DNA of 43,006 nt from a virus, in IMG/VR virus record IMGVR_UViG_3300027747_004207, positions 1-43,006 of that record. One strand, written 5' to 3'. Positions within the stretch are counted from its first letter, which is position 1. Every line of letters starts with the position of its first letter. The translations under genes and the position numbers were made by a program. The notes beneath the pieces were generated by a model. It saw only the letters and a program-made list of their open reading frames with translations, searched no databases and was not told where the DNA came from. Positions 1 through 18,344 of this stretch are shown piece after piece.

Positions 1-302
1 GCAAACCAGTCTTCGATTTGATAGTCCTCAAGTCCCAGACGCTGCCACTCACCGGACCGGTTGAACAGATTGATCTGCCACACAGCTTGATTCAACTGAA
101 TGCACAAATACTCCAAGGTTCTAGCAGTGCCAGCAAAGCCCATGAAGCAGTAATTTTTTTCCAGCATGCAGTCAGACTGCAGCAATTGTTTGAGAGCAGT
201 GATCCAGTCTCCCGCCAACTGGGTATCGTTGGGCACAATCCAGCAATCCAGTGTGCTGGCTCGATCAATAGGATTCCTTAGGGTAATTTTTATTTCACTC
301 AT
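1..302 (-). CDS. Partial hypothetical protein, 3' end outside window
   Basis: The minus strand is open from an ATG at 302-300 to the window edge, giving about 100 residues that start MSEIKITLRNPIDRA and contain LEKNYCFMGFAGTARTLEYL. The start codon overlaps the end of the upstream radical SAM gene by 8 bases, so it is the next gene of the accessory operon. I recognise no domain. Its aromatic- and Cys-containing core and its tight coupling to a radical SAM gene make it a possible partner or substrate-handling protein, but that is inference. The C-terminus is not visible. Confidence 0.7.
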   Translation of the reverse strand, partial: MSEIKITLRNPIDRASTLDCWIVPNDTQLAGDWITALKQLLQSDCMLEKNYCFMGFAGTARTLEYLCIQLNQAVWQINLFNRSGEWQRLGLEDYQIEDWF

Positions 303-1596
303 CAATTGCTTTCCACCAAGCATGCACGTCAGGTCGTTGACTCAATATCTCATCCATGGTTGTGGGGTTGGTTCTAATAGATTCCAGTCTCAATATTCTT
401 TGCTTGCCTTGACGCCAACCTTGTAAATATTGGTCCGGCCATTGTTCTTCAAAGGTGGGTCGATTCTTTAACTGTGTCAACACATCCTGCATGGCACCAG
501 AGGGCACTTGTGCCAACAGCTCATCTACCCAAGGATCCAACAAACTTCTGGGCAAGCACAGGGGACTCATCAAGATATCAGGTGTGAATGCAAATGTAAC
601 CTTGGACAACACATCTACACCCAATTCCCGAGCGATGTTCATGATGTTGACCACTTCAAACATGCCCGGCAAGGTCAAGGTAAAATCAAATCGCATCTGT
701 CTGGGATGGCGAGCAATTGCCAAACCTTGCTGAAAATTATTTAAAAAGATGGCAGATTCTAACCCGGTGCGGATGTATTCTCCGATGGGCCCGAATCCAT
801 CGATGCTGGCACAAATTTGCCAGTCTCGAACATGAGCCAGTATATCCCGATAAAGATTGGCACCTCGATAATCAACCCTACTGAGATTGGTGTTGTATCT
901 AGCATAGACTCTTGGTCCGTCACCCAGATCAACAATGCGACGCATGTAGCGCCAGTGTTGTTCATACATGAGTGGTTCACCACCTACCCAGTATATTTCT
1001 TCTACTCGGTGTTCCTCCACAGCTGAAGCAAATTCAGCTTCGATTTGACTGTCTTGAAAACGAGCAATCTCTTGGCGAACTTCGGGATGCATCCAGGTGT
1101 TCTTGGGATCAGCCCAGTTGATCATGCCATGCTGGCGCTGTTCACTTTCCCAGCTACTGCTGAGCATGTCTCCACACATGCGACATTTGAAATTGCAGAG
1201 ATTGCTAAATCTGTAGTCCCAACTCACAGGTTTGACTGTAGTAAATCCCGATTCGTCTGTGGCAGCCATAGCCGCTTCGTACTTATGGCCAAACAGATTG
1301 TTGAAATAACTGCGATACACATCGGTGTTGAGCAACCGACTGTTGCATACATCGCACTCGGGCAGGGTTTCTCCAGCCATCATTCTCTGGCGCACTGACC
1401 GCATGTGATCACTATTCCAGTGCTGTTCCAAAGTCATGGGTCGATAGACACCGGTACCAGCTGCAGTGTCTATGTACTGCGCAAAATTTTGTGCAGGTTC
1501 TCGACTGGCACAACACATGCGCCGTTCGGTTTGTGGACTCAAGTAGGTGTGAGTCCACGGTGCCATGCAAAGAGTGTCAGGGCGTGTTGTAGTCAT
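295..1596 (-). CDS. Radical SAM protein with N-terminal twitch-like Cys region (copy A)
   Basis: The radical SAM core is shown by CNFKCRMCG (the CX3CX2C motif that binds the SAM-cleaving 4Fe-4S cluster), then WVGGEPLM (the GGE SAM-binding strand) and SIDGFGPIGEYIRTG. Before the core are LCMAPW, RMCCASRE and PECDVC, a Cys set like the auxiliary-cluster (twitch) region of NCBI's twitch-domain radical SAM family. Such enzymes usually modify peptides or other small substrates, but the substrate here is unknown. I chose the ATG at 1596 over an in-frame TTG at 1602. The gene overlaps the end of the upstream radical SAM gene by 20 bases. It groups with copies B and D by its PW and CRxCG motifs. Confidence 0.9.
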   Translation of the reverse strand: MTTTRPDTLCMAPWTHTYLSPQTERRMCCASREPAQNFAQYIDTAAGTGVYRPMTLEQHWNSDHMRSVRQRMMAGETLPECDVCNSRLLNTDVYRSYFNNLFGHKYEAAMAATDESGFTTVKPVSWDYRFSNLCNFKCRMCGDMLSSSWESEQRQHGMINWADPKNTWMHPEVRQEIARFQDSQIEAEFASAVEEHRVEEIYWVGGEPLMYEQHWRYMRRIVDLGDGPRVYARYNTNLSRVDYRGANLYRDILAHVRDWQICASIDGFGPIGEYIRTGLESAIFLNNFQQGLAIARHPRQMRFDFTLTLPGMFEVVNIMNIARELGVDVLSKVTFAFTPDILMSPLCLPRSLLDPWVDELLAQVPSGAMQDVLTQLKNRPTFEEQWPDQYLQGWRQGKQRILRLESIRTNPTTMDEILSQRPDVHAWWKAIDE

Positions 1597-2797
1597 ATTC
1601 AATTAACTGGGCCATTTCCGGAGCCACGGTTCGAAAGTTTTGATTTCGTTTGCGATCCAGATCACGTATTTTTAGTCGCAACATAAAACCGTCGGTACTG
1701 GCTCCACGATTCATGAAATCCACGATGCAATCAAACTCTTTGCGGAAGCTGGCCGGCAAGGTCAAGCCCTGCAGGTATTGTGTAATCTCTGCTTTGGCAG
1801 CGTCAGGCAAGGTGGCAATGCTAAAATACCAAGCATCGTGCATCATGTTCCAGTACACAAAGTCAAATCCTTGTTGGGCAATCCACTCGGCCACATGCTC
1901 AAGGTAACGTACATTGAATATGTTGATGGTGCAACATACCTGCAGTCGAATATTGCTGTGTTGCTTTTTTAGTTGTTTGAATTTCTGGATATTTTCACCC
2001 ACTTCAATCCATGACGCATTTGTGCGTTGATATTCAAATCTCTCGCCCACGTCATCTATGCTGAATGCAATTTCCACAGTTTTAAAATGGCGCCAAATTT
2101 CAATGGCATTTTCAGGATACTGTGTGCCATTTGTGTTGTAGTGTATTTCTACTTGGTGAGCAATGCCGCGATCCACAATGCCTTGCAGCATGGCAAAATG
2201 CTCTTGAATCATGAACGGCTCACCGCCAGTGAATTCAATATAGCGAATTTGATCCAGGGCTTGATCTATTTCTGACCAAAAGCGTTCGTTCTCCCTGGGC
2301 CAGGCACCAGCTCGCAACATCTGATAAGGATATGATTTTTTCTTTTCTTCATCCGTGCGCAGTTGATTCATTTCTTCCACAGCAAATTGACTGCTGGACC
2401 AAGAACCACAGATGCGACATTTCAAGTTGCAGATGTTGCCCAGTTTGAGATCCAAAAACATCAAGGGCTTGGCATCCGCAGTCCAGTCCGAATCGGGCAG
2501 CACATGCTTGAGACGATCCAGGGTGTGCATGCGTTTGCTGGTACGGCCGCCACGTTCCTCGTTCCAGCACTTGCGACAGGTTTGTGGCTTCTCTCCGGCT
2601 AAAAATTGCTCGCGTAACTTCTTCATGTGCTGACTTTGTTGTACTTCACCAAAGGTTGCTGTAGTTAATTCGAACTTGTTGCCAGCATTGTCAACAATTT
2701 CATCATCGGCCAGGCAGCAAGGCCTTACTGTGCCAATGGGGCTGGCTTCTAGGCTAACCCAAGGCAGAACGCAGAATTTTTCATGTGGAATGTTCAA
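1577..2797 (-). CDS. Radical SAM protein with N-terminal twitch-like Cys region (copy B)
   Basis: This 406-aa protein begins MNIPHEKFCVLPW, then has VRPCCLADD and CRKCWNEE as putative auxiliary-cluster ligands. The radical SAM CX3CX2C motif is ICNLKCRICG, followed by FTGGEPFM and SIDDVGERFEYQRT. The start is TTG at 2797, whose bases form a TTGA overlap with the stop of copy C. The N-terminal motif begins only a few residues in, which supports this start. It is translationally coupled on both sides. The overall plan matches copies A and D, so the three are probably paralogues with different substrates. The reaction is not predictable from sequence alone. Confidence 0.9.
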   Translation of the reverse strand: MNIPHEKFCVLPWVSLEASPIGTVRPCCLADDEIVDNAGNKFELTTATFGEVQQSQHMKKLREQFLAGEKPQTCRKCWNEERGGRTSKRMHTLDRLKHVLPDSDWTADAKPLMFLDLKLGNICNLKCRICGSWSSSQFAVEEMNQLRTDEEKKKSYPYQMLRAGAWPRENERFWSEIDQALDQIRYIEFTGGEPFMIQEHFAMLQGIVDRGIAHQVEIHYNTNGTQYPENAIEIWRHFKTVEIAFSIDDVGERFEYQRTNASWIEVGENIQKFKQLKKQHSNIRLQVCCTINIFNVRYLEHVAEWIAQQGFDFVYWNMMHDAWYFSIATLPDAAKAEITQYLQGLTLPASFRKEFDCIVDFMNRGASTDGFMLRLKIRDLDRKRNQNFRTVAPEMAQLIEYDYNTP

Positions 2798-4056
2798 AGT
2801 ATTATCTCTCTATTGATTTGTTTGAAAATGTCTTGTAACTCAGCAAAATCCGAGTGTTGCGGATTGAACACATTTTTACGGTCAAAAACGTCTTGTGGCC
2901 AAGTGCCCCAATTCCACATTTTCTGAAAATTAATGTGTTCAATGCCCAATTGATCACAGAGTTCAACAACTAGTGGTATTTCTTTAAAATTATCTAATTG
3001 TACAACAAAGTCTGCACTAAGTCGAGTCGAAAAATTATTTTTATTTATAAACTGTTTTACCCAACGCACATTGTCTAACAATAAATCCCATTGACCATTG
3101 ACTCTAATTTGTTTATACGTAGACTCAGTGGCAGCATCAAAACTTATACGTAACTCTTGTGTGACCGGCAACAATTTTTCCAGTAGATATTGTTTGGATT
3201 TTAAATAGCTACCATTTGTTTGTATAATATGTTGTATATTTGTTTTTCCAGTGGTTGCAATATAATCTAATAGAGTCAAATATGGTTCACTGATAAACGG
3301 TTCGCCGCCGCACCATCTTATTGAAATGGGTTGATTTTCAATTTGATCAATTACCAGTGTTTTGATTTTGTCAACAATGTTGTTGTTTATGTTGCGTATC
3401 ACATGGTGTTTGTTGTTGTTGATTAACTCTGTTCGGCAACTAGGACATTTAAAATTGCATGTGTAGTCAAAATCAAAAATGAGATTGGTGGGTATTGCAT
3501 TGACCTGTAGTTGATCAGCAGTGCTGATTGGCAATGCTACCAATGATTGATCACTATCGGGCTGTGTGCTATACGATTCAAAAGGTATATCTCTAAAAAA
3601 ACCACAAATTTTGTTGTTGCAATAAAAATATCTATTGTTAGAAATTTCATTTCTAATTTTCAAGGCCAGGTCGGAATTCAATGCATCGTAAATATCGTTG
3701 ATCTGTAGTATGTTACCAACAAATTTGGGAATCCAACTGGGGCTGCTGCATATAAAGATCTCTCCATTGGCATTGATTCCCATGGTATTCCAAGGAACAG
3801 TACAATGGCTTTTGCCAATTAATTTTTTATCGAAAAAAATCTGTTGTTGACGTTGTTGATTATTTTCGGCCAATTCTTCTCCGGGCAAGGTTAATTCTTG
3901 ATATGTTTGTGTCATCATACGCACAAATTCATCAACTTCTTGTTGAATACCTTCATCGGACACAGACCGTTGGTCAACAACATCTTGATAGCTGGGCCAG
4001 TCAGGCCCAGCAAACACCAGATAATCTTTAACACCAATGATCTTGGATAGTTCCAT
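2794..4056 (-). CDS. Radical SAM protein, AT-rich divergent copy (C)
   Basis: This 420-aa radical SAM protein has the core motif CNFKCPSCR, then RWCGGEPFISEPYL and SFDAATESTYKQIR. Upstream of the core are HCTVPWNTMGINANGEIFIC and YFYCNNKICGFF, a SPASM/twitch-like Cys arrangement placed N-terminally. It has a longer N-terminal extension (about 80 residues with a Gln-rich stretch NNQQRQQQ) than copies A, B and D. The DNA is clearly poorer in G+C than its neighbours: hand counts in 60-base lines gave 27, 32 and 42 percent, against 47-48 percent in copies D and E. It starts at ATG 4056, one base after the stop of copy D, and ends in a four-base overlap with copy B. A separate acquisition is likely. 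Confidence 0.88.
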   Translation of the reverse strand: MELSKIIGVKDYLVFAGPDWPSYQDVVDQRSVSDEGIQQEVDEFVRMMTQTYQELTLPGEELAENNQQRQQQIFFDKKLIGKSHCTVPWNTMGINANGEIFICSSPSWIPKFVGNILQINDIYDALNSDLALKIRNEISNNRYFYCNNKICGFFRDIPFESYSTQPDSDQSLVALPISTADQLQVNAIPTNLIFDFDYTCNFKCPSCRTELINNNKHHVIRNINNNIVDKIKTLVIDQIENQPISIRWCGGEPFISEPYLTLLDYIATTGKTNIQHIIQTNGSYLKSKQYLLEKLLPVTQELRISFDAATESTYKQIRVNGQWDLLLDNVRWVKQFINKNNFSTRLSADFVVQLDNFKEIPLVVELCDQLGIEHINFQKMWNWGTWPQDVFDRKNVFNPQHSDFAELQDIFKQINREIIL

Positions 4057-4057
4057 T

Positions 4058-5356
4058 TTACTTCAAGTCAGAAATTTCTGGTATCACATCTAAAATGTTT
4101 TCTCGTCGTATGGCATCGAGCTCGTGTGTTTTGTGCCAGAATTTTGTTATTAGCCCAGTGTTGTCAGTTGCGTTCATGAATGTGATAGCACTTTCAAAGC
4201 CCACCGTGGCACGATTCAGCTGGTCCAATGGACGCAACCATGTCAAGTGTTGTTCTAGTCGATCCTGTATTCTCTGTTTGTACTCCGGTGGTGCAATGTC
4301 AATTCTGAAATAGGCCGGGTCCTGCAGGATGTTGACATTGAGATCCTGAGGACGCAGTAGTCCTTTTTCCACCCAGTCACGGTGAAAGTCTGGCAGATGC
4401 ATGGCGTTCAATATGCTGAGCGTGGGAGAGATGTAGAAATCCACACCCGGACATTCTTCCAGCATCTGTCGACGATTGGCTTCAACTTGTGCCCAGTCTG
4501 TGCCTTTACGTATGTATTCGCCACGTGCACCGGCAGCATCCAAGCTGGCACCCACTGCCACAGACTTGAACTTGCGCCAGTAATCAAAAACTGTGCGATG
4601 CTTCAGCTTCACTTGGGTAAAGTTGGTGTTGTAGATCAAGCGTACATCAAAGCGTCCACGGCGTTCCAGTTCCTCAAGGATCAAGTAGTGTTCTTCCATC
4701 ATGAGTGGTTCGCCACCGGCAAAATAGATCTGTTCCACGTAGTCCAAGTGCGGTTGCAACTGTTCCCACATGTCGGTTTCACTGCGACCAGCGATGTTTA
4801 GCACAGTGTGATTCTTTGCCCAGTCTCCGCCGGCCAGTCGGGCTTGATCTTGATACCACTGGCTGCTGAAAATATGACCACAACTGCGGCAGCGCAGGTT
4901 GCAGAGATTGGAGAAACGTATATCCCAATAGGTCATTTCAAACTGATCAACGTGACCATCTGCCTGTGTGTCATGCACGCGGACAATGTTGTGTCCATGA
5001 TGCTTGTTGGCACTTTGACGTCCCGAAAAGAATCCCGACTTTTCTTGTTCATAACATCGGCCGCATGCAGGATTTTCAGTCTCGTTCAACATGTCAGATC
5101 TCAATTGACGCTGAGCATCACTGTTCCAGATTTCAGACAGACTGTTGTTTCGGCAGTTGCCAATCTGGCCCACACCCATCTCGGCGTGGCAGCAAGGGTA
5201 CGCTTCACCAGTGGGGTAAGCATGCAGATGTATCCAAGGATACATACAAAATGTGTTGGACTCGGTCAACAAAAATCGTTCACGATCAGTCAACTGATCC
5301 ATGCTCATTTTGATGAGGTCACTGCTGTTGTATTTGTATTGACTCATACCATTCAT
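4058..5356 (-). CDS. Radical SAM protein with N-terminal twitch-like Cys region (copy D)
   Basis: This 432-aa protein carries FCMYPWIHLHAYPTGEAYPC, then C-H, and ACGRCYEQE in its N-terminal third, with a SPASM-like LSEIWNSDAQRQLRSDML between them. The radical SAM core is LCNLRCRSCG, then FAGGEPLMMEEHY and SLDAAGARGEYIRKG. The iron-sulfur ligands for the SAM cluster and a probable auxiliary cluster are all visible. The ATG at 5356 is used here; another in-frame ATG lies at 5347. The 5' end overlaps copy E by 38 bases. It is closest in layout to copies A and B. Confidence 0.9.
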   Translation of the reverse strand: MNGMSQYKYNSSDLIKMSMDQLTDRERFLLTESNTFCMYPWIHLHAYPTGEAYPCCHAEMGVGQIGNCRNNSLSEIWNSDAQRQLRSDMLNETENPACGRCYEQEKSGFFSGRQSANKHHGHNIVRVHDTQADGHVDQFEMTYWDIRFSNLCNLRCRSCGHIFSSQWYQDQARLAGGDWAKNHTVLNIAGRSETDMWEQLQPHLDYVEQIYFAGGEPLMMEEHYLILEELERRGRFDVRLIYNTNFTQVKLKHRTVFDYWRKFKSVAVGASLDAAGARGEYIRKGTDWAQVEANRRQMLEECPGVDFYISPTLSILNAMHLPDFHRDWVEKGLLRPQDLNVNILQDPAYFRIDIAPPEYKQRIQDRLEQHLTWLRPLDQLNRATVGFESAITFMNATDNTGLITKFWHKTHELDAIRRENILDVIPEISDLK

Positions 5357-6671
5357 TCAAATTGGGAAATGCTCGAGCAAAGTCTTTGCCCCGGCGCTGA
5401 TCATACTGCTGATAAAATTTAACAAAGTCATTCAACAGTGCAGGACGTTCAAAGGTGTCCGAGTGTGGTGTTCGGACCACGTCAAGATAATCAATTAGTC
5501 GTTGTGTGTGATTGATCTCATGCTCGTGCAAAAAAGGATTGTGTTGGTTCGTAAACAACCACTGTTCCAGCTCCACACGATAGCGTGTGCGCAAATGATC
5601 AGGCAGTACCAAGGCGGACTGAAAGCTAGGAAAACGCAATATATTTAGCGTGAAGTTCACAGCATCACGCCCGTACAGTTGCTTGAGTTCCAGCATGGTG
5701 TCCAGGTGGGCAACCAAGCTGTCCAAGCACAAGGCATTGATAGTGCACATCACATGCACTGCTTTTACTGCACCGGATTCTACCAAGGCCTGCACATTGT
5801 CCAGCCACTGATGATAATCTAGGCCGTCACGTATGTATTCGGCTTGAATCCCTGTGGCTTCCATGCTGGTGTACAATTCCACATGCGGCAACGGTTTTAC
5901 CGCCTCTATGAACTCCGACAACTTTTCTTCGTTGAATCCCAGGTTGGAGTTGATGGCTAATCGTGTGGTGCTCTTACCTTGGTTTTGTTTGAACCAATCA
6001 ATCAAGCGCCAGGTGTAACCCGACATTAAGGGTTCGCCGCCGGTGATTCTTAGTTCTTGCAGTGTACGGTGTAGGTCTGTTTCCCACCAAGCAAAGAAAG
6101 CATCTACATAGGGATTGACTTCGTTAAATGTATATCGCTGAGCCGACTCGTGAGTGTGAGTAAAGTGATTGCGCCCATCTGATATCAAGCCTGTGTAAGC
6201 ACCGTGCTTTTTGATATCATTGACCCAGGTGCTGGAAAAAGCAGGGTTGCAATAGCTGCAGGCAAATTGACAGGTACGGTCAAATGCAATTTCCAAGGTG
6301 CGCAAGTTTACATCTTGATCGGCAGGGGTGGCAAATGCTTCATCAAGTGCTGCAATGGGATATATCTTGCTCTTGTACACACGATCGCTCACAGCATCAC
6401 GACCCATGTCTTCAATCTTCCAGCAGTACTCACACCCAGGAGGTCGTTCACCTGCCAGCATCTGTGCACGATCCTGTTTTTTCTGCGCTGAGTTGTGTAG
6501 AGCACGTGGATTTTTCAGAGCCTCTTCCACAGGGACCATGTGTGCCGGAGGGTGATGGCAACTGGTGGTCATGCCTGATCCCAACCATATGGTGGCATTG
6601 TACCACTTGGCTGCACAAAAGCTGGAGCTCTTGGTGTCCAAGAATTGGCGTTTAAATTCTAGATCATTCAT
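5319..6671 (-). CDS. Radical SAM protein, CHHPP type (copy E)
   Basis: The radical SAM core is TCQFACSYCNPAFSSTW with RITGGEPLMSGYTW and SMEATGIQAEYIRDG. The N-terminal region is distinctive: FCAAKW, then SCHHPPAHMVPVEEALKNP, ALHNSAQKKQDR and GERPPGCEYCW. The same order recurs in copy F (SCYHPP, ALHNTSHKKAQR, GQRPPECQYCW), so these two form their own subfamily. I start it at ATG 6671 (MNDLEFKRQFL), which overlaps the upstream stop by 8 bases; the longer frame to 6725 needs a GTG. It follows a GT10-like gene, as copy F does. The C-terminus DQRRGKDFARAFPNLNEWY also matches the end of copy F. Confidence 0.9.
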   Translation of the reverse strand: MNDLEFKRQFLDTKSSSFCAAKWYNATIWLGSGMTTSCHHPPAHMVPVEEALKNPRALHNSAQKKQDRAQMLAGERPPGCEYCWKIEDMGRDAVSDRVYKSKIYPIAALDEAFATPADQDVNLRTLEIAFDRTCQFACSYCNPAFSSTWVNDIKKHGAYTGLISDGRNHFTHTHESAQRYTFNEVNPYVDAFFAWWETDLHRTLQELRITGGEPLMSGYTWRLIDWFKQNQGKSTTRLAINSNLGFNEEKLSEFIEAVKPLPHVELYTSMEATGIQAEYIRDGLDYHQWLDNVQALVESGAVKAVHVMCTINALCLDSLVAHLDTMLELKQLYGRDAVNFTLNILRFPSFQSALVLPDHLRTRYRVELEQWLFTNQHNPFLHEHEINHTQRLIDYLDVVRTPHSDTFERPALLNDFVKFYQQYDQRRGKDFARAFPNLNEWYESIQIQQQ

Positions 6672-7734
6672 GAAGATGTTGTTGGATAAATTGGTGAAAC
6701 CGGTCTGGGAATTCTTTGCGCACACGCACTCGCATGTCGGAAAGGTGCTGTTGATTGTATTTACACGTATTGTAACACTCTTTCAAGAAACTCTCAAGAT
6801 CTTGGCTGCACAAGTCGTCAATGACTTGAGCTATGCGTTCCAGTCGATCTTGATTGTTTTCAATGCTATCAAAACTTTCATCAATTGCCGAATCGAATGT
6901 GCGGAATCCCAGGTTACGCAGGTCACGATAGTAACCTGCATTGGCCACAGCAATCCAAGGATGGCCCATGGCAACGGGCTTCCAGATTTTTTCTGTTCTA
7001 AAGCTGTAAGGATAATCAAACACAGTTTCGGTTACCACGCTGAAGTAGGTGTCAATGTAGGGTGCAGCTTTGAGATAGATTTCACCCCAGTCGTTGTTGA
7101 ACAGCTGATGCTTGACAAATCCCAGTGTACCTGCAGATGCTACGCGAGATTGATAAAAGTCAAATTCATATTTTTCGGGCAAGGTTTGTATTGTGCCAGC
7201 ATGACTGTCCAAATTGGTCCACAAAGCATCAGGCAACAGATGTTGCAACCTTTTTAATAAAAAAACACGATGAGGCCGGCTGCGCCCGTTGAGAAACAGA
7301 AATTTATAAGGTCGAGTTGTGGTATAGCATTGCTGATATTGGTTTGCAGCAAATACGTTTTCTTCATAATCCAATATCTTGGGCAAAAAACTGTCAAATT
7401 GCAAATAGTGTAAACCAGCTTCCATGTCACCACCGCTGATCAGCAACAGCTTGCCTTGCTCTACTAGATCAAGCACTCCCATACGATCGCAATGATTCCT
7501 TAAAGTTTCGGAACCTTCATGTGGATTGCTCAACACCATCACACAGTCGTTGCGTTCGGCAATTTTTCTTATGCGATCAACATGTTGATTGAATTGCTCA
7601 CGCCCTATCAAGTACACTGCCCCTGGCTGCGGATCCACAGTGGTAAAGTTCCAGAAATTGCCTGTGGACCAGGGCTTTAATAAATCATAAACCTCACAAA
7701 ATGTATCAAGGTAAATTTCAGCAGTTGCGAGCAT
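6664..7734 (-). CDS. Putative glycosyltransferase, GT10-like C-terminal motif (copy G)
   Basis: This is about 356 aa from ATG 7734; an in-frame GTG at 7743 would add three residues. The C-terminal half has VVTETVFDYPYSF, then RTEKIWKPVAMGHPWI and GYYRDLRNLGFRTFD. This recalls the sugar-nucleotide-binding TEK motif of GT10 (alpha-1,3-fucosyltransferase-like) enzymes, though similarity to characterised members is too weak to give a donor or acceptor. KFLFLNGRSRPHR near the middle fits a GT-B inter-domain start. It lies between radical SAM copies F (upstream) and E (downstream), overlapping both. Gene H at 9133-10122 shares the EKIW and GFRTFD blocks and is its paralogue. Confidence 0.65.
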   Translation of the reverse strand: MLATAEIYLDTFCEVYDLLKPWSTGNFWNFTTVDPQPGAVYLIGREQFNQHVDRIRKIAERNDCVMVLSNPHEGSETLRNHCDRMGVLDLVEQGKLLLISGGDMEAGLHYLQFDSFLPKILDYEENVFAANQYQQCYTTTRPYKFLFLNGRSRPHRVFLLKRLQHLLPDALWTNLDSHAGTIQTLPEKYEFDFYQSRVASAGTLGFVKHQLFNNDWGEIYLKAAPYIDTYFSVVTETVFDYPYSFRTEKIWKPVAMGHPWIAVANAGYYRDLRNLGFRTFDSAIDESFDSIENNQDRLERIAQVIDDLCSQDLESFLKECYNTCKYNQQHLSDMRVRVRKEFPDRFHQFIQQHLHE

Positions 7735-9136
7735 GGTATTCACATTCGGACCACCAGGCCGTCATTTCGGGAAATGTTTTCAAGAAGTCGGTGCCGCGTC
7801 GTTGATCATGTTCATGGAAAAAACGATAGAAGTCTGCTTTGTTTCGAGAGAGATAAGCAGTGTCCAGTTGTTGACCACAACGCATCCAAGCAATGTCTCG
7901 GTCCAGTCTAGCAACCTCATAATCCTTGAATCCATGGAAAGGATCATCCGGAGTTTCTTGCTGACGAATCATCCAGGCCCAGAGGTGTTCCAGTCGGGCT
8001 GCATAACTCTCAGGCAGCAGTTGCAGACTCTGCCAGTGCGGCTGACGCAGTACCGGTGTATCAAACCATATTCTCTGATAGGTCTTGCTGTAGGTTTTTC
8101 TCAAGCCCAGAATACCAGCAAACAGCGTTTCCAAACTGGTGACAGACAGATTGTTCATTGTGACAATAAACGTGATGCTGTTGCGATAAGGAATTTCAGT
8201 CAAGAATTGATTTACTCGATCCCATAGCAGTTCAAAGTCCAGGCCATGACGCATGTATTCGGCTTGCGCACCCCATCCGTCTAGGCTGATGTATTGCATA
8301 AAATGTTCCAGCACACCCTCTTGACACAACTGTTTAACATAACCTTTGTAGCGTTGCCATGACTTTTCGTCCACTGAAAAGTTGGAAGTCACATTGAGAT
8401 GCAGTCGAGGGCTAGGATTGGCCAGCACATAATCAAACACACGATAGGTGTTCTTGTCCAACATGGGCTCGCCACCGGTCATGCGAAAATGTTCCAGCTG
8501 TGGATACAGAGTGGGCCACCACTGCCAAAACGCATCCACATAGGGATTGTGTTCTCTCACAGGGATGGGACGATTGCGACCCCGAAAGTGACTGGGATCA
8601 TTATGTGTGGTACTAGTGGGATAGCCGCCGTGACGTTCAATTTCTTCTGCCCAGCTGGAACTAAATTGTGGACTACAATAGCTGCACTTGAGATTGCACA
8701 CATGATTGAAGTTGACTTCTACATAACTGGGTACTACATCATCTTCATCGCCGGTAGAGTTTTTGATTTTTTCAAAATCCAAGGCTGCCCAGGGCTCACC
8801 AGATCTGTAGTGCCGATCACTCAGCTTGCCCGCATCCTCCATGTTCCAGCAGTACTGACATTCTGGCGGACGCTGGCCTGCCAACATCAGCTTTCTCTGA
8901 GCTTTTTTGTGGCTGGTATTGTGCAATGCCCCGGGATTGACAGCAATTTCTGCAGCAGAGATCTCATGCAACGGAGGATGGTAACAACTGTTGTTGAGTC
9001 CGGTAGGCAAGTGAAAACTCACCTGCTTCCATTTGGCCAAGCACAGTGAGTGACCCAGCTGATCCTTCATTTGTTCAGCAGAGCTCAAGAACTTGCTCTT
9101 GTTCCCTATAGTCTCGTCACCTTTGTTTTGAGTCAT
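7718..9136 (-). CDS. Radical SAM protein, CHHPP type (copy F)
   Basis: This 472-aa paralogue of copy E has the radical SAM motif VCNLKCSYCSPQFSSSW, then RMTGGEPMLDKNTY and SLDGWGAQAEYMRHG. The N-terminal Cys/His set is SLCLAKW, SCYHPPLHE and PPECQYCWNMED. The C-terminal DQRRGTDFLKTFPEMTAWW parallels the end of copy E. The ATG at 9136 overlaps the stop of gene H (ATGA), and its own end overlaps gene G. With the neighbouring GT10-like gene it forms one of two GT-plus-radical-SAM units. The CHHPP-type motif may hold an extra metal cluster; this is inferred from the conserved residues. Confidence 0.9.
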   Translation of the reverse strand: MTQNKGDETIGNKSKFLSSAEQMKDQLGHSLCLAKWKQVSFHLPTGLNNSCYHPPLHEISAAEIAVNPGALHNTSHKKAQRKLMLAGQRPPECQYCWNMEDAGKLSDRHYRSGEPWAALDFEKIKNSTGDEDDVVPSYVEVNFNHVCNLKCSYCSPQFSSSWAEEIERHGGYPTSTTHNDPSHFRGRNRPIPVREHNPYVDAFWQWWPTLYPQLEHFRMTGGEPMLDKNTYRVFDYVLANPSPRLHLNVTSNFSVDEKSWQRYKGYVKQLCQEGVLEHFMQYISLDGWGAQAEYMRHGLDFELLWDRVNQFLTEIPYRNSITFIVTMNNLSVTSLETLFAGILGLRKTYSKTYQRIWFDTPVLRQPHWQSLQLLPESYAARLEHLWAWMIRQQETPDDPFHGFKDYEVARLDRDIAWMRCGQQLDTAYLSRNKADFYRFFHEHDQRRGTDFLKTFPEMTAWWSECEYHARNC

Positions 9137-10122
9137 TGTCCGAATACCTTTGTAAAATCAGTTTCTTTTAATTCTAACAGTCTATGCAAATTATGATCTA
9201 GCACCACGGACATGTCTGAGTACATGGATTTCAGTTCCAATGTACTCAACCGAGATAATCGTTTGATATTATCAATCATGGCAGCTACTTGGCAGTCTGC
9301 AGGATCTTCGCTGTACCCTTCGTCCCACCATCGATCAAAAGTTCGAAAACCCATTTTTTGTAGATTTAAAATCAATCCTGCAGGTCCTTGCACCATGAAT
9401 GGTGTTCGCATCAAAACCGGACGCCATATTTTTTCATCTATATAAAATGTGCAACCGCTAGTGAATGTGAGACTCACTAATTCTAGAAAAAACTTTGAAT
9501 AATAACCGGTGATGTTGAATGTTTGGTCAGGGCCAATGGGATAACACACAGTGGATTCCAGTTTCAAGGGTGCATGACTCAGTAGATCAAATGCCCATTT
9601 GATCTGTTCCTGAGATATCGATGCATCAAACATGAGATCCTCTAATCCAACAAACTCTCTGTGATAGGGTTCATGTACATCACAGTGATACGACTGCAAG
9701 GTCTGGGTTGAGTGATTGGACCAGAGGTAACTTGCTAAATGCAATCTTGATTTGTTACCATGCCCGATAAAATGTCCAAAGTGCAAGAAGTTGTTGTCAA
9801 ATATCTTTTTGGTGTTGATTCCTTGTCTCGAGGCCTGCATCGCTGCTGCCAATTCATAGTTTTGATGTTGTTTTATAATACAATATTCGGAATGAGACTC
9901 AAGGAAGTTGGCAGTGTGAATTTCAATCTGTTTTTTTGGAAAATTAAATGTGCAGCAGATTTCATCTAGTAGTGCATAAATGCCGTTGCTTTCACAACAA
10001 GGGCCTTCGCCATTGAGATCAATCTGCACAGGGTCGACTCCGTTGATCAAGGCTTGAATGATTTGGATCAGAGCCTGATCTTTTCCAAAAATTTTACCTT
10101 CGCTGATCTGTAACTTTATCAT
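9133..10122 (-). CDS. Putative glycosyltransferase, GT10-like C-terminal motif (copy H)
   Basis: This 329-aa protein has a C-terminal block IDEKIWRPVLMRTPFMV followed by LQKMGFRTFDRWWDEGY, matching gene G (TEKIWKPVAMGHPWI, LGFRTFDSAIDES). The N-terminal half (HFGHFIGHGNKSRLHLASYL) does not match gene G well. It is most likely a sugar transferase with a GT-B-like C-domain; donor and acceptor are unknown. It is the first minus-strand gene after the plus-strand aminotransferase. A weak late-promoter-like GTTAAATA (minus strand, 10132-10139) lies 9 bases before the start. Its composition is somewhat poorer in G+C than copies D to F. Confidence 0.55.
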   Translation of the reverse strand: MIKLQISEGKIFGKDQALIQIIQALINGVDPVQIDLNGEGPCCESNGIYALLDEICCTFNFPKKQIEIHTANFLESHSEYCIIKQHQNYELAAAMQASRQGINTKKIFDNNFLHFGHFIGHGNKSRLHLASYLWSNHSTQTLQSYHCDVHEPYHREFVGLEDLMFDASISQEQIKWAFDLLSHAPLKLESTVCYPIGPDQTFNITGYYSKFFLELVSLTFTSGCTFYIDEKIWRPVLMRTPFMVQGPAGLILNLQKMGFRTFDRWWDEGYSEDPADCQVAAMIDNIKRLSRLSTLELKSMYSDMSVVLDHNLHRLLELKETDFTKVFGQ

Positions 10123-10146: not shown

Positions 10147-10743
10147 ATGTGTATGTTTGAAATAATCACTCAGTTCGAAGATCGTATTGCACAATTTTAT
10201 GGCAGTTCGTATGCTGTGTCAACTGATTGTTGCATACACGCAATTGAGTTATGCCTAAGGCACCGAGAGTACAACAATGTCGATTGTCCCACACATACCT
10301 ATATTGGCATTCCAATGACTTTTGAAAAACTTGGGTTACAGTGGTCCTGGAACAATCAACCTTGGCAAGATTATTATCGTATTGGCAACACAGACATCAT
10401 CGACGCTGCAGTATACTGGAAGCAAGATAGTTACATGCCCGGCACTTTGATGTGTCTTAGCTTCCAATTCCAAAAACATCTCAATCTCACACGCGGCGGT
10501 GCTATTCTAACTAACGATTACAACGAATATGTGGCGTTGAAAAAATTGAGCTTTGATGGACGATATGGCAGCGCACCCTGGAAAGATCAAGACATAACCA
10601 GTATAGGGTATCATTACTACATGCCTATCGAAACAGCAAAGCTGGGTTTGGAAAAAATTGATGCTGCTATCGCTGCCAATCCAAAGCAATGGAGCTGGCA
10701 AAATTATCCTTATCTGCCCGATTTCACTGTGTTCCAGAAATGA
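10147..10743 (+). CDS. Minimal DegT/DnrJ/EryC1/StrS-family PLP aminotransferase
   Basis: This is the only plus-strand gene in the window, 198 aa against about 370 for the family. The N-terminus FEDRIAQFYGSSYAVSTDCC and HTYIGIPMTFEKLGL match the cofactor-phosphate and fold elements of DegT enzymes. IIDAAVYW holds the Asp that contacts the pyridine nitrogen. FQFQKHLNLTRGGAILTND carries the expected PLP-lysine followed by the GG-TND strand. It ends just after YHYYMPIETAKLGLEKI, where family members begin their C-terminal small domain, so that whole domain is missing. The family aminates keto-sugars for deoxy-aminosugar synthesis. ATG at 10147 or 10153 could be used. Its 3' end overlaps the SGNH gene on the other strand by 20 bases. 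Confidence 0.8.
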   Translation: MCMFEIITQFEDRIAQFYGSSYAVSTDCCIHAIELCLRHREYNNVDCPTHTYIGIPMTFEKLGLQWSWNNQPWQDYYRIGNTDIIDAAVYWKQDSYMPGTLMCLSFQFQKHLNLTRGGAILTNDYNEYVALKKLSFDGRYGSAPWKDQDITSIGYHYYMPIETAKLGLEKIDAAIAANPKQWSWQNYPYLPDFTVFQK

Positions 10744-11431
10744 TGCGCTGGTACAACAATTCTGCGTAGTATTTGTGAGCATGTGCGTTAGGGTGCACAC
10801 CATCCGATGCTAGCCACGAGTTATCATGTGCAATTGTTTCAAGACACTCGTCCTGGTAAACTCGAGTCCAATCAACAAGATTTCGCAAATGGTCAAATCT
10901 TGACAATGTTTTTATAGGTCGCCAGTGCATGAACAAGTAAGGTATACCTTGTTGCTTTAATACACCTTGAAGACTAATCATTCGAATATATTCCGATTCA
11001 AGTATTTGTTTGTGTGTTGTAATCCCATGACATGGTCGAAACACTTGACTCACGCTGTCAGTTCTTTCGCCCTGCATGTATCCCAGACTAAAAATCCAAT
11101 TCTTTTCCACATAGTCTTGATCGTTTATAGGAACCACTATTTTTTCAGGCCAGTCATTTTGTGCACTTTGATATTGTGAAGTATTTTTGCTGTCCGAAAA
11201 TTTAGAAATATCATCAACCCTGAAGTCCATGCGACCGCACTCGGCCCACATAATCAACACAAGATCATATTTTCTGCGAGCTATTTCGCCAACTGTGGTT
11301 TCATGTATATAGGTATTTCCGCATCCGGCCAAGGCCAAATTTACCAAATTGCAGTCCAGCATTTGTTGCAGATAATAAGGCCATGAATCAGGGCCTCTAC
11401 TGATACTGGCACCGTTAACTAGCAGATTCAT
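10724..11431 (-). CDS. SGNH/GDSL-type hydrolase-like protein
   Basis: I start this 235-aa protein at ATG 11431, where ATGA overlaps the stop of the adenylating-enzyme gene; the longer frame runs back into that gene and is not coding. MNLLVNGASISRGPDSWP gives the block I nucleophile serine, LALAGCGNTYI resembles block II, and SDGVHPNAHAHKYYAELL near the end gives the Asp-His pair of block V. The GxND block III is replaced by IMWAECGR, so activity is less certain. SGNH enzymes remove or transfer acyl groups on sugars and lipids. That fits an operon with an acyl-adenylating enzyme and glycosyltransferases. Confidence 0.75.
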   Translation of the reverse strand: MNLLVNGASISRGPDSWPYYLQQMLDCNLVNLALAGCGNTYIHETTVGEIARRKYDLVLIMWAECGRMDFRVDDISKFSDSKNTSQYQSAQNDWPEKIVVPINDQDYVEKNWIFSLGYMQGERTDSVSQVFRPCHGITTHKQILESEYIRMISLQGVLKQQGIPYLFMHWRPIKTLSRFDHLRNLVDWTRVYQDECLETIAHDNSWLASDGVHPNAHAHKYYAELLYQRIISGTQ

Positions 11432-12510
11432 TGATATTGATCCTCCAATAGAGATCGAGATATCTTGCCGCCAGCGCCTACAGGTATGGCATCCACTTGT
11501 TGTATTATTTCTGCACGACAATGACGATTTATCCGCAGCAATTCTTGCTGTATCTGATCTGGGGTACAATTTCCAGTGTATAAACATTTTACTCTATCGC
11601 GGCCAAATATCACACAGGATTCTATACACGGTAGTGATTGTGTGAGTTGATTTTCTATACTGACGGGATTGAGCTTGAATCCGTTGACGTTGATTTGATC
11701 TCGATGTCGCCCAATAATGCGATAGTAACCCAGATCATCTTGCTCAGCAAGATCTCCTGTGTTGTACCATTCCGATGAACTCACACAAGGTCCCTGAATC
11801 CATAGCTGCTGATTTTGTATGTCTGCTTGTATTCCCGATGGCAGACCCACTGTGCCCATGCGCTGTTCACCATTTAATGGATTGGTAAAACAATGACTCA
11901 ATGCTTCGGTCATACCAAATGCTTCAATCACAGGAACGCAGAACTTCTCTGTCAGATGTTGATACAATGAGTCAGGCAATGCTGCACTGGCACTGCGTAT
12001 AAATCTCAACGAATCCAGACTTAGATTGCCAATGAGTTTGAGCATGCCCGGAATTGCTGTTACAAAGGTTGGCGATAGCTTTGGCAATTCACGTATGCGG
12101 TCCAGAGTCAAAAATTGCACTTCACACCCGGTCATTTTTGTAGCCCAGTAAAATCCTTGTCCGTGAGAATGACTCAGACTCATCACGCTAACATATCGAT
12201 CGTTGGCTGTGATATTGTATGCTGTGCATATGGTGCTGGACAATGTGTCTATCTGATCCTGTGTGAAACTACAAAACTTGCTGTCCCCAGTAGTACCAGA
12301 TGTGTACCACAATAATTTTTCATTAGGGTAATTTCCACCATCTCTATACTGCTCACCTTGATCGGTAATCAGCAAGCTCCAGTCAGCTTGTGCTAATAGA
12401 TATTGCTGACGTTGTGCAGTGGCTTGTGGATCCACTATCATGATACTGTAGTGATCCAATTGATGTATATAATCTTGTGGTCGAGAAACGCAAATTACTG
12501 CTCGTTTCAT
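11428..12510 (-). CDS. Minimal ANL-superfamily acyl/aminoacyl-adenylating enzyme
   Basis: This is a 360-aa AMP-binding enzyme of the acyl-CoA synthetase and NRPS adenylation-domain superfamily. Motifs appear in canonical order: YTSGTTGDSK (A3, ATP phosphate loop, about residues 69-78), SLSHSHGQG (A4 region, about 110), EAFGMTEA (A5, about 195), YNTGDL (A7, about 248), GRHRDQINVNGFKLNPVSIE (A8 hinge, about 266) and GGKISR (A10 catalytic Lys, about 346). Typical members run 500-550 aa. Most of the N-terminal subdomain before A3 is reduced to about 65 residues. It should activate a carboxylic acid as the adenylate; the acid and the acceptor (CoA, carrier protein or amine) are unknown. I see no carrier-protein gene in the window. 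One base separates it from the GT2-like gene. Confidence 0.88.
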   Translation of the reverse strand: MKRAVICVSRPQDYIHQLDHYSIMIVDPQATAQRQQYLLAQADWSLLITDQGEQYRDGGNYPNEKLLWYTSGTTGDSKFCSFTQDQIDTLSSTICTAYNITANDRYVSVMSLSHSHGQGFYWATKMTGCEVQFLTLDRIRELPKLSPTFVTAIPGMLKLIGNLSLDSLRFIRSASAALPDSLYQHLTEKFCVPVIEAFGMTEALSHCFTNPLNGEQRMGTVGLPSGIQADIQNQQLWIQGPCVSSSEWYNTGDLAEQDDLGYYRIIGRHRDQINVNGFKLNPVSIENQLTQSLPCIESCVIFGRDRVKCLYTGNCTPDQIQQELLRINRHCRAEIIQQVDAIPVGAGGKISRSLLEDQYQ

Positions 12511-12511
12511 T

Positions 12512-13438
12512 TCACCAACCTTCTTGGCGACGAATCACGTCAATTTCTCTAGTCATGGCACCTTGATTGTGCCAGTTGCTTCTATAGTGATGCTTGAAGA
12601 ATTGGCTGGCATCAGCAGACATGTCTGTAATGGGCAGATCCAGTTGCGTGACCAAATCTGGCGACACCCGAGCACTCACTGTCTCTGGATCCGAATCTTT
12701 CACAGTGTCCCAGATTTCAGCCAAGGAGTCAAACCACTGTACTTGGGTATAGTCCCACCCAGTTAGCATGGTCATATGGGTACCCTGACGTGCACCGGCA
12801 ATGGCCCAGGCACCGTGATCCACGTCACGACCCACGTTGTGCCACACAGTTAGATGATCAAGGTTGCGTTGATGTACTCGATCCTGGAATTCAGTCACTG
12901 TGGGCCTGGCGCCTCGATTGAGGCACATTTTGACCCCTTCGCGGAATCCAGCACGCCAGGCGTGGAATGCCGAACCATTGGGATAGGTCACAGAGTAGCA
13001 GTCATGCATGGCCCAGTACAAGGGATCAAAACAAAACTCAACCACAGTTTCGGCACGACCATCTGTGGACTCGTGTGTTCTCATGTTTTGCACAAATTCA
13101 CGTGTCCATGAACTCAAACCACCGTTGCCGTACATGAGTCCATTGATGTGATTTCTAGCACGCCATCTAAACACTGCACGCTCGTAATCTTTAGTGGGGT
13201 ATTCCAGTGTGAGATTGAAAAATTCTGGGTCTGGCAAGTTATCACCGTCAATGAGAATGAATCGCTCGGTGGCACTGGCTTCAGCAGCAGCTTTGTGTGC
13301 TGCGTCCGAACCCTTGACTCCGTCCACACGTTGAGCCCAGGGAATCATGTTGCGAATTTTCACCCAAAATTCTTCACGCTGCGGCTCATCGTATGATAGA
13401 TAAATGCAATCAAGATCGGCTACATCAACTCGTTTCAT
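12512..13438 (-). CDS. GT2-like (GT-A fold) putative glycosyltransferase
   Basis: This 308-aa protein opens with [18 protein letters not shown], a GT-A beginning, and reaches [13 protein letters not shown] (residues about 59-71). DGDN is a plausible DxD-type metal/nucleotide-sugar motif. Later Trp/His-rich segments ([25 protein letters not shown]) may form the acceptor side. No membrane segment is evident, so it probably acts in the cytoplasm. ATG 13438 overlaps the stop of the upstream small gene by 14 bases. Sugar and acceptor cannot be assigned. Confidence 0.65.
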
Positions 13439-13778
13439 AAGTTTTCAAACTCCATTTTGTACAAGGCATCTGTGTGGCATCAACAACCACAGCAACATTT
13501 CTGGGATCGCAGGTGACACCTGTGTCTCCGGGTACCAATTTGCTGATTTGTCGACGACACAATTCTGTCAGTTTTCCATTGATCACACGCACATTTGTGC
13601 TTGCTCGGGCAAACATTGCCGCATCAATTTCTATGTAATTACCAGGCAGGTCTTCCATGCTATAGAATAAGGGCATGCCAGATTCATCGTGATACAACCT
13701 GAAAAACACAGGTTTGGGAGGTTCTGGTTCCCAGGCATTGAATGCTGCCCAAAAATTGTCTGTAGTCTCTTGACTCAT
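13425..13778 (-). CDS. Conserved-looking hypothetical protein, 117 aa
   Basis: I start this at ATG 13778 ([13 protein letters not shown]), which forms an ATGA overlap with the stop of the upstream GT8-like gene; the frame extends to a TTG at 13790. Visible segments are [19 protein letters not shown] and [21 protein letters not shown] recognise no family. It is not Cys-rich and has no leader-like layout, so I do not read it as a radical SAM peptide substrate. Tight coupling on both sides makes it a real operon gene. Confidence 0.7.
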
Positions 13779-14593
13779 GACATGCGCCAATCTTTCACTT
13801 GATAGTGAACAAATCCATGTTGAGCCACTGTTTGTATCCTCAAGCCCGGATCAGTTGATTCCCATACCAGTTCTTGTGTCCAGTTGTCAGTGTGAGTACC
13901 TTGTATGTGTCGCTTCATGTGCACAATGGTTGGGCCCATGTCCAGTGGCAAGGTAACTGTTTCCACACCTAACACCACAGCAGCCATGGCATATACCACA
14001 TCTGTAGTGGCTTCCTCATCAGGGAATTTCAACAGGGTGCGCCACTCGGCCCAATTTTCAAATATGCTTCTCACAGTTGCAAAAAACTTTTGAGCAGTTT
14101 GACTAAGTCGCCAGTAGGTGATGGCATTGTACACATCAGGCAAATGGTTGTGATCAAAAATCTTGCGATAAAATCTTGACGCAGCAGGCTCGTCACGGAA
14201 GGTTCTGGCACCTTGACTGATCACCATGTCACGATGTTCAAACAGGCTCCACCAGTGATCAACTGGACCGGCTGCAATCATGTCAGCTTCCAGCTTGATG
14301 GTTTGTCTAAACGGTGATGCCCAAAACATTTGCCAGTCGTTGATTTGTTTGTTGCTGCTGGTGCTGACATCTCCCCAGGGCAGAGGTATCACATGATCAA
14401 ACACAGTATTGCGGCAGTCAGCATTGGTAACCAGGGCAATTTTTGCTGCTGGATGATGCTGTCGTAGGCTGTGAGCCAGCTGCTCAGCACAGGCCAAGTA
14501 GTTGGTATCTTGGGTGTCAACAGCAGGTATAAGGTACCCGCGTTCAGCTAGAACTGGCAACAATGGCCTCCAATTGTTGTTTGCCCATGGCAT
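13775..14593 (-). CDS. GT8-like putative glycosyltransferase, ExD variant
   Basis: This is about 272 aa from ATG 14593; the frame is open to 14647, and a TTG near 14563 is also possible. The N-terminal pattern [19 protein letters not shown], then ALVTN and [11 protein letters not shown], parallels its upstream neighbour (DYVSMAAWSARNIRRHL, AVVTD, LFDHVI), so the two are paralogues. At the DxD position the sequence is KLEADM, so the first Asp is Glu. [13 protein letters not shown] near the end supplies a His typical of the C-terminal metal ligand in GT8-like enzymes. It probably transfers a sugar; the substrate is unknown. The 5' end overlaps the neighbour by about 50 bases. Confidence 0.6.
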
Positions 14594-15344
14594 GAAAATC
14601 TTGATTGCGTATAGATATCCATTGTGGTTTTTGTTCCAAATTGACAAAGTTCACACGGTAACTGTCTGGAGAAATTTGACATAACTGGTGATCCGGGGTC
14701 AGGCTGGCCAACCCCCAAGGTATGCTGTTGTGATGTGTTGTGTGCCCGTTCACAATGCCCAATGCAATACTTAGTGCATGGTCATTGCGATAGGTGCTTT
14801 TTGTATTGGCATACAAATTACAGTAGTGAGACCAATTGTCTTGAATCATGTTCATGGCATCAAATATCAACTCAGTGTGTTGACTGCGTCTGAACATCAT
14901 CACAGTGGCCCATGACATGGGCATGCGATAGTTACCAAAATAGTTTAAACCTGAAAAATCATTCAAGCCCGTGATGTCGTATGCCCAGCTGTGGGCCAAG
15001 AAATCCTGTTGGGAATTCAACACCTTGGTTAAATCTGAACTGGCCACCACATAGTCAGCATCCAACACCAGGGTTTGATCCCAAGGTGTGAGTTCATAGG
15101 CCGAGGCTCGATTGGTGTTGTGCCAGGTCACGTGAGTGCCATAATCCGAAAAATATCGAGTGTTGGCAGATTTGGAACCTTGCACAATCACATGATCAAA
15201 CAGTCCGTCAGCTGGCACTGAATCAGTTACCACAGCAACTGGAATGTCAAGGTGGCGGCGTATGTTGCGTGCCGACCAAGCAGCCATGCTCACATAGTCT
15301 GTTTGGTCATTGTTGTAGGCAAATATTAAAGCGCCCGTGGTCAT
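14544..15344 (-). CDS. GT8-like putative glycosyltransferase
   Basis: This 266-aa protein begins MTTGALIFAYNNDQTDYVSM. It has TLVLDADYVV (DxD metal motif, residues about 91-100) and YRMPMSWATVMMFRRSQHT, with [10 protein letters not shown] near the C-terminus as the likely third metal ligand. The order fits GT-A enzymes of the GT8 type acting in the cytoplasm on nucleotide sugars. ATG 15344 overlaps the stop of the preceding small gene (ATGA). It is followed by its own divergent copy at 13775-14593. Confidence 0.68.
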   Translation of the reverse strand: MTTGALIFAYNNDQTDYVSMAAWSARNIRRHLDIPVAVVTDSVPADGLFDHVIVQGSKSANTRYFSDYGTHVTWHNTNRASAYELTPWDQTLVLDADYVVASSDLTKVLNSQQDFLAHSWAYDITGLNDFSGLNYFGNYRMPMSWATVMMFRRSQHTELIFDAMNMIQDNWSHYCNLYANTKSTYRNDHALSIALGIVNGHTTHHNSIPWGLASLTPDHQLCQISPDSYRVNFVNLEQKPQWISIRNQDFHAMGKQQLEAIVASSS

Positions 15345-15646
15345 CGATTGTGATTCAATTCTTCATATTCTGCCAGCCAGGCGTTCATTTGTTCTTGCCA
15401 ATGCTGCATGGCCCGGCCTCGAAGTTCTTCGGGATTCACACGAACCGGTGTTTCGTATAGATCCAGGATCACAGCATCACCAGGGGGCACAGTGGCCAAT
15501 AGCACCAGCAATTCGGGTGCAGCACGCCACATGCCTCCGGCATGAGCAAACAGCAGGCGAGCTTGGTATTTTTCTCGCAGCGTGCGACGAGCAGCAGCAT
15601 GTTCAAAACGTGCGCGGCCATGGGCAATTAAGTTGTCAGTGTTCAT
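15341..15646 (-). CDS. Hypothetical protein, 101 aa, first gene of the accessory operon
   Basis: The frame opens at a GTG at 15652, but the ATG at 15646 (MNTDNLIAHGRARFEHAA) is preferred because the predicted sigma70-like start of transcription falls at about 15647. No Shine-Dalgarno sequence is present upstream, so the message may be leaderless. The protein is rich in Ala, Arg, Leu and Glu (RRTLREKYQARLLFAHAGG, LRGRAMQHWQEQMNAWLAE) and probably helical. I do not recognise the family. It is translationally coupled to the GT8-like gene that follows. Confidence 0.7.
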   Translation of the reverse strand: MNTDNLIAHGRARFEHAAARRTLREKYQARLLFAHAGGMWRAAPELLVLLATVPPGDAVILDLYETPVRVNPEELRGRAMQHWQEQMNAWLAEYEELNHNR

Positions 15647-15653
15647 GAACACA

Positions 15654-15682
15654 ATTGTACAGGAGATTTGGATAAAAGTAAA
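15654..15682 (-). promoter_or_regulatory. Sigma70-like promoter of the accessory operon
   Basis: On the minus strand a TTTACT (-35-like, 15677-15682, four of six to TTGACA) is followed after exactly 17 bases by TACAAT (-10-like, 15654-15659, five of six to TATAAT). A start about seven bases downstream would fall at about 15647, next to the ATG at 15646. It lies directly behind the terminator of the virion module. No other promoter is visible to serve the operon's first gene. Confidence 0.5.
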
Positions 15683-15699
15683 GGGCCCGCAGGCCCTTT
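15680..15699. terminator. Bidirectional hairpin terminator ending the virion module
   Basis: A perfect 8-base-pair stem AAAGGGCC / GGCCCTTT encloses a 4-base loop. On the minus strand it is followed by TTTACTTTT. On the plus strand the stem ends in TTTT. It lies 19 bases beyond the stop of the fibre-like gene at 15719-16717 and separates the late structural genes from the accessory operon. The -35 element of the next promoter uses part of the same stem. Confidence 0.8.
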
Positions 15700-15718
15700 T
15701 GGTTGACCAGTTGCTTGA

Positions 15719-16717: not shown

Positions 16718-16753
16718 TTGTGTTTCCCTTTGTATTAGTTGATCAATTTCAAC

Positions 16754-16778
16754 GCAGTATTGAACAGTTCAATACTGC
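16754..16778. other. Long perfect hairpin between the two fibre genes
   Basis: An 11-base-pair perfect inverted repeat (GCAGTATTGAA / TTCAATACTGC) with a 3-base loop sits in the 85-base gap between the fibre gene and the fibre-like gene. No T-run follows it on either strand, so it is not a canonical intrinsic terminator. It could be an mRNA-processing or stabilising stem, or a protein-binding site. Confidence 0.7.
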
Positions 16779-16802
16779 TGGGTGATTTCAATCTTGTTAT
16801 TG

Positions 16803-18290: not shown

Positions 18291-18311
18291 GCTTTCTCCG
18301 TCCTAGTAGCG

Positions 18312-18319
18312 TATTTATT
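18312..18319 (-). promoter_or_regulatory. T4-type late promoter octamer, tail fibre
   Basis: The minus strand reads AATAAATA, seven of eight to the T4 late consensus TATAAATA, 21 bases before the fibre ATG at 18290, with a GGAG ribosome site in between. Spacing is typical for a late gene. Confidence 0.65.
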
Positions 18320-18336
18320 GCAAAATAATATGTACA

Positions 18337-18344
18337 TATTTATG
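18337..18344 (-). promoter_or_regulatory. Second late promoter octamer, tandem upstream copy
   Basis: The minus strand reads CATAAATA, seven of eight to TATAAATA. It overlaps the stop codon of the 202-aa virion gene and lies 25 bases upstream of the other octamer, so the fibre gene may have two late start points. Confidence 0.5.

Follow-up and report, generated by a model that had tools for sequence, protein, structure and literature searches.

Described systems

Radical SAM proteins with a twitch domain N-terminal to the catalytic core have a family name, NF033640 (NCBIfam N_Twi_rSAM, 'twitch domain-containing radical SAM protein', curated cut-off 170 bits), and the name comes without a reaction and without an array of five paralogs such as that considered here. 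In the classic radical SAM enzymes of sugar chemistry the auxiliary domain is C-terminal, and the auxiliary cluster of a SPASM or twitch domain may relay electrons or bind substrate. NeoN, HygY and BtrN, which act on sugars, have the radical SAM core in common with the proteins described below, and HygY and BtrN also have a twitch auxiliary domain, but they are single enzymes and not a set of five, and the likeness seen is one of domains. Cys249 of the sugar epimerase NeoN is reported to be a hydrogen donor, and the same paper cites HygY, a sugar epimerase with a twitch domain (PMC10991966).

Among phages, Nishimura et al. 2017 (PMC5332604) reported an A-type Fe-S carrier and 12 radical SAM genes in the T4-like marine genome TARA_ERS488813_N000010. 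It resembles the cassette-bearing records below in being that of an aquatic phage of T4 type rich in radical SAM and Fe-S assembly genes, but the section of the account covered here describes neither a cassette nor a gene order, and mentions no carbamoyltransferase, ortholog groups or substrate. Host-recognition regions of pelagimyophages differ by radical SAM cassettes which, as in the present locus, share the tail-fibre region of a T4-like phage with glycosyltransferases, although that account mentions radical SAM twice only and without family, order or pathway (PMC7029224). Vibrio phages K566/K567 (255 kb) likewise have a close group of four N-twitch-like radical SAM genes, but at ~21% identity, in a separate clade and with no such cassette annotated; in K566, an isolated phage, these highly diverged genes lie at 12007-18749 (our locus L007), and a PagP-annotated gene and a nicotinamide phosphoribosyltransferase are found a few kb from them. 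Related facts are already in print, then, in the 12-radical-SAM T4-like genome and the pelagimyophage cassettes, and a search largely confined to literature outside the subscription journals found no published account of the ordered cassette described below, its carbamoyltransferase or its chromosomal counterpart.

Six radical SAM genes in the window

The window, meaning the whole 43,006 nucleotides analysed, is a linear 43 kb IMG/VR record (IMGVR_UViG_3300027747_004207). An initial annotation had placed six complete radical SAM genes within ~9 kb of it, each with CX3CX2C, a GGE motif and extra cysteines N-terminal to the core, and six minus-strand open reading frames are indeed present there:

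295-1602, minus strand, radical SAM A (ortholog group A), 435 aa, NF033640 279 bits
1577-2797, minus strand, radical SAM B, 406 aa, NF033640 340 bits
2794-4056, minus strand, radical SAM C, a divergent, AT-rich, optional insert, 420 aa, NF033640 91 bits
4058-5356, minus strand, radical SAM D, 432 aa, NF033640 412 bits, AF2 pLDDT 94.6
5319-6725, minus strand, radical SAM E, 468 aa, NF033640 308 bits
7718-9136, minus strand, radical SAM F, 472 aa, NF033640 310 bits

CX3CX2C and GGEP are found in all six, as are four cysteines N-terminal to the core (in D, for example, C37, C55/56, C98 and C101). All six match NF033640, and since A, B, D, E and F exceed its cut-off and share its domain order of N-terminal twitch and then radical SAM core, the N-terminal twitch-like cysteines are a known family trait; the domain order that had been called unusual is uncommon, but it already defines a named family. 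C, a divergent relative, scores under the cut-off and has a GC content of 0.356 against 0.46-0.48. The gathering score of PF13186 is passed by B, C and D and just missed by A, and E and F have no match.

IMG/VR yielded 142 relatives of D, and the loci of 80 of these were read; because all phage loci were retrieved with D as query and near-copies are included, the locus counts given here and below are not independent samples. In trees each of A, B, D, E and F makes up a single clade, with support of 96-100 by FastTree and 98-100 by IQ-TREE (A 99, B 99, D 100, E 96-98, F 98-99). The proposed types A/B/D, E/F and C survive in outline, E and F being sister clades, A, B and D separate and C a long-branched group of its own, although the CHHPP motif said to mark E and F is CYHPP in F. 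Recent redundant duplication of the copies is ruled out by the FastTree and IQ-TREE clades, which make five old and separate ortholog groups. Six is thus the number for the window, whereas across loci five are conserved and C is optional, being present in only 4/81 and falling outside the conserved set.

The core CX3CX2C and the four N-terminal cysteines are 100% conserved within each of the six groups (alignments of A n=71, B n=78, D n=81, E n=76, F n=77 and C n=4, near-copies included), so that, judged by conservation, the Fe-S ligands have been retained throughout. Further cysteines are conserved group by group, namely A264, B288, D302, E333 and F271/F465, and would suit differing hydrogen-donor geometries by analogy with NeoN, although other causes are possible. 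The solved structures nearest to the D model are CteB and anSME, ahead of BlsE, but all have TM scores of ~0.35 and match at the level of the core only, which makes the fold of D uninformative on the class of substrate.

Order of the cassette across phage loci

When the same array was sought in phage genomes a fixed five-gene order was recovered in IMG/VR loci. The order c3-F-E-D-B-A is kept in 40/43 loci whose flanks are long at both ends, and 38/43 of such loci run on through cl8 and then a NodU/TobZ-type carbamoyltransferase. Loci with 9 kb downstream contain B in 48/48, A in 47/48, cl8 in 48/48 and the carbamoyltransferase in 46/48, and both E and F are present in 72/73 of the loci with 9.5 kb upstream. 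At the edge of the window only the beginning of cl8 is seen:

3-302, minus strand, start of cl8, a conserved cassette gene of ~353 aa, cut by the window end (tblastn)

Here residues 7-95 of a homolog from another locus (L016) align to positions 302-3 with 41% identity (tblastn E=1.6e-18). Because the window stops inside cl8, the carbamoyltransferase was invisible to the initial annotation. It has both Carbam_trans domains, N (PF02543, E=2e-35) and C (PF16861, E=2e-48), and its closest relatives are small-molecule O-carbamoyltransferases (novobiocin-type, GdmN, TobZ); PF02543 is present in 17/17 large phage records. Among isolate phages the cassette was not found, D and E reaching only distant Vibrio phage proteins, and queries with cl3, cl10 and the GT-B protein described below gave no phage match there.

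MetK makes SAM, and MTA/SAH nucleosidase removes 5'-deoxyadenosine. MetK (S-adenosylmethionine synthetase, full-length where checked) is found in 11/12 loci that have an MTA/SAH-nucleosidase-like gene, and genes for Fe-S supply occur among the large records as IscU in 6/17 and an A-type carrier in 9/17. In a subset of genomes, then, the cassette enzymes appear to be supplied with SAM and Fe-S by phage genes. In a subset of loci the nucleosidase-like gene and a full-length MetK lie inside the cassette, as in L041 (12492-13058 and 15535-16635), and IscU and the A-type carrier are adjacent in three cassette-bearing records (G001:C1:291412-292087, G008:C1:180530-181208 and G013:C1:189670-190342).

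Sugar-type neighbours and tail genes

Between F and E, and upstream of F, the window holds a further series of genes, some conserved across loci and some in variable parts:

6664-7743, minus strand, probable glycosyltransferase of predicted GT-B fold (cl11), between F and E (AF2 and Foldseek)
9133-10122, minus strand, second protein with a TEK..KP-type motif (cl16), inferred to be a probable glycosyltransferase
10147-10743, plus strand, short DegT/DnrJ/EryC1-type sugar aminotransferase, variable part (PF01041 E=6.5e-10)
10724-11587, minus strand, SGNH/GDSL-like protein (cl24), variable part (PF13472 and DUF6071, below cut-off)
11428-12510, minus strand, AMP-forming acyl ligase, short form, variable part (PF00501 E=5e-26)
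12512-13438, minus strand, cl3, conserved, glycosyltransferase-like by DGDN motif only (70/73 loci with upstream sequence)
13425-13790, minus strand, cl7, conserved small protein, 121 aa (65/73 loci)
13775-14647, minus strand, cl5, conserved, GT8-like by motif only (67/73 loci; phrog_1903)
14544-15344, minus strand, cl6, conserved, GT8-like by motif only (66/73 loci)
15719-16717, minus strand, cl10, Ser/Thr/Gly-rich presumed virion protein directly upstream of the cassette (28% S+T; 48/73 loci)
16803-18290, minus strand, cl13, tail-fibre/baseplate-type virion protein upstream of the cassette (PHROG, tblastn)

The protein encoded between F and E has no Pfam match, and its AF2 model (pLDDT 92) finds, as the lowest-E Foldseek PDB matches, nearly all GT-B glycosyltransferases, with exostosin best (E=2e-3) and then trehalose-6-P synthase and WaaG, so it is probably a glycosyltransferase of that fold. 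It aligns with cl16 across the motif region, at 18% overall. From their motifs cl3, cl5 and cl6 look like glycosyltransferases as well; cl3 has neither a Pfam match nor a useful PDB sequence match, cl7 has no family match, and PDB sequence searches with cl3, cl5/cl6, cl11 and cl8 returned nothing useful. The SGNH/GDSL-like protein is found in 12 loci, and the variable slots of other loci include an NDP-sugar epimerase. The aminotransferase, at 198 aa, is the sole plus-strand gene of the cassette region, and the AMP-forming ligase, at just 360 aa, apparently misses its usual N-terminal part.

On the tail side, cl13 has PHROG virion structural and tail-fibre matches and tblastn matches to jumbo phage virion and tail-pin proteins, and cl10, from its composition and place, is a possible acceptor of decoration. 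The window also carries T4-type baseplate genes, with a gp6-like protein ~34% identical to that of Atu_ph07, RaK2 and related jumbo phages. The cassette would be a biosynthetic one, belonging to a large phage of T4/RaK2 type. A single open reading frame of 4811 aa lies amid the tail genes (19105-33540, minus strand).

Bacterial counterparts

A contig from a Bacteriovoracaceae MAG has co-orthologs of A, B, D, E and F in one array, the placements of A, E and F being strongly supported and those of B and D less so. Since this array adjoins genes read as obgE, rpmA and rplU it is taken to be chromosomal, and no recognisable glycosyltransferase or carbamoyltransferase lies beside it. Across 129 genomes of the class to which Bacteriovoracaceae belongs, A has 6 strong cases and strict E has 9, and 5 genomes hold both, even without adjacency (Fisher p=2.7e-6, or 3.2e-5 when one pair alike in its surroundings is merged), a result that is only suggestive because the genomes share ancestry and the thresholds for A and E were set after the score gap had been seen. 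Of the other bacterial relatives, those at 7 loci have NodU-type carbamoyltransferases nearby, and one adjoins what read as ABC-type polysaccharide-export genes. Among 140 neighbours of bacterial N-twitch genes, the recurring types include phytanoyl-CoA dioxygenase (4) and WelO5-halogenase (2). The Elusimicrobia MAG bin-0981 (L129, L131, L134) encodes many proteins of ~500-1078 aa, each with an N-twitch radical SAM domain, and several of these are consecutive on one contig.

Possible function of the cassette

That such a density of genes reflects a multi-step pathway rather than one auxiliary enzyme, as first proposed, is well supported, if indirectly, by the five groups, their kept order and ligands, the bacterial array and the A/E co-occurrence, with the amendment that C is not part of the set. 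Neither of the two findings named beforehand as refuting it turned up, the ligands being kept, as judged by conservation, and the copies not being recent duplicates. What the pathway most likely does, at roughly an even chance in our estimate, is to tailor a glycan carried by the virion or by the host surface. The substrate had been described as not obvious; with glycosyltransferases as conserved context and a carbamoyltransferase just outside the window it has become less opaque. Counting against a sugar role are the peptide-modifying enzymes that head the matches of D, uninformative as these are at TM ~0.35, the Bacteriovoracaceae array with neither type of gene recognisable beside it, the motif-only assignment of cl3, cl5 and cl6, and a best GT-B match of E=2e-3.

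For such glycan tailoring each enzyme would cleave SAM to the 5'-deoxyadenosyl radical at a [4Fe-4S] cluster bound by its core, and the N-terminal domain would, from the pattern of its ligands, hold one auxiliary cluster, serving in A, B, D, E and F perhaps for electron relay or substrate binding. The five enzymes would then probably carry out successive radical steps (epimerisation, dehydrogenation or rearrangement), their substrates being sugar units assembled by the glycosyltransferases next to them and capped by the carbamoyltransferase. The finished glycan would most likely decorate a virion protein, for which the upstream tail-fibre-type genes are candidates, or the host surface. A more specific proposal, in which large aquatic phages and some relatives of predatory bacteria share a five-step pathway to a novel carbamoylated glycan or protein decoration, with a different radical reaction and an N-terminal auxiliary cluster for each enzyme, is tentative and possible rather than probable. 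If the pathway reading is true, the cassette would rank among the densest concentrations of radical chemistry known from viruses, with SAM and Fe-S supply of the phage's own in some of the genomes, would give NF033640, a family named without a reaction, a testable function and would link phage tail and surface glycans to radical enzymology; in the Bacteriovoracaceae, with their chromosomal counterpart, genetics may be possible.

The enzymes might instead act on a protein of the virion or tail, or on an unlinked peptide, and alter its residues in the manner of SPASM maturases, with the glycosyltransferases acting on the same protein. The best solved-fold matches of D are the peptide modifiers CteB and anSME, the named SPASM relatives in NCBIfam are mostly peptide maturases and tail-fibre-type genes directly precede the cassette, but the TM scores are too low for an assignment of function, and the carbamoyltransferase and the sugar aminotransferase favour small-molecule or sugar chemistry. 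Further, A to F overlap or abut and leave no space for a precursor gene, and cysteines are few or absent in cl7 and cl12, which are small and conserved, so that we hold modification of a protein or peptide to be unlikely. The remark that no classic Cys-rich precursor is nearby stands, none being recognised, and a RiPP cluster is ruled out, as there is no room for its precursor gene between A and F.

That the pathway alters the host O-antigen, capsule or a cofactor during infection (as superinfection exclusion or auxiliary metabolism) and not the virion seems improbable. Host-recognition glycosyltransferases of pelagimyophages, in whose host-recognition regions radical SAM cassettes also occur, are proposed to modify host O-chains (PMC7029224), and the bacterial relative beside polysaccharide-export genes points the same way; no such export genes were seen in the cassette, however, and it lies directly downstream of the tail genes and in their orientation, which points to late expression.

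Very improbable is hypermodification of phage DNA, in which carbamoyltransferase and glycosyltransferases would act on modified bases and the radical SAM steps on the base. A phage carbamoyltransferase does make 5-carbamoyloxymethylcytosine, but that system pairs it with a thymidylate synthase homolog making 5hmC (PMC8670742), and such a homolog (PF00303) is found in 0/17 cassette records, none of them proven complete; with five radical steps and the tail-side position also fitting poorly, we set DNA modification aside for lack of this homolog. An expansion of N-twitch genes whose array is a chance cluster without a joint pathway, as the spread of up to 21 copies per record, many of them single and between replication genes, might suggest, is already disfavoured and hardly credible given five ortholog groups near-universally co-present in conserved order, strict conservation of Fe-S ligands, recurrence of the array on a bacterial chromosome and the suggestive A/E co-occurrence (Fisher p 3e-6, or 3e-5 with one related pair merged).

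Copies outside the cassette

The NF033640 members that lie outside the cassette in these phage records often sit singly among genes read as T4-type replication genes. In three records one such copy has a gp46-like gene on one side and a gp47-like gene on the other, and in a further two it adjoins gp47. Dispersed copies were read in two records, G001 (L105-L122) and G006 (L088-L104), and at loci L218-L237. The copy at G001:C1:318146-319294 has an in-frame TAG within its profile match and may be a pseudogene or be recoded.
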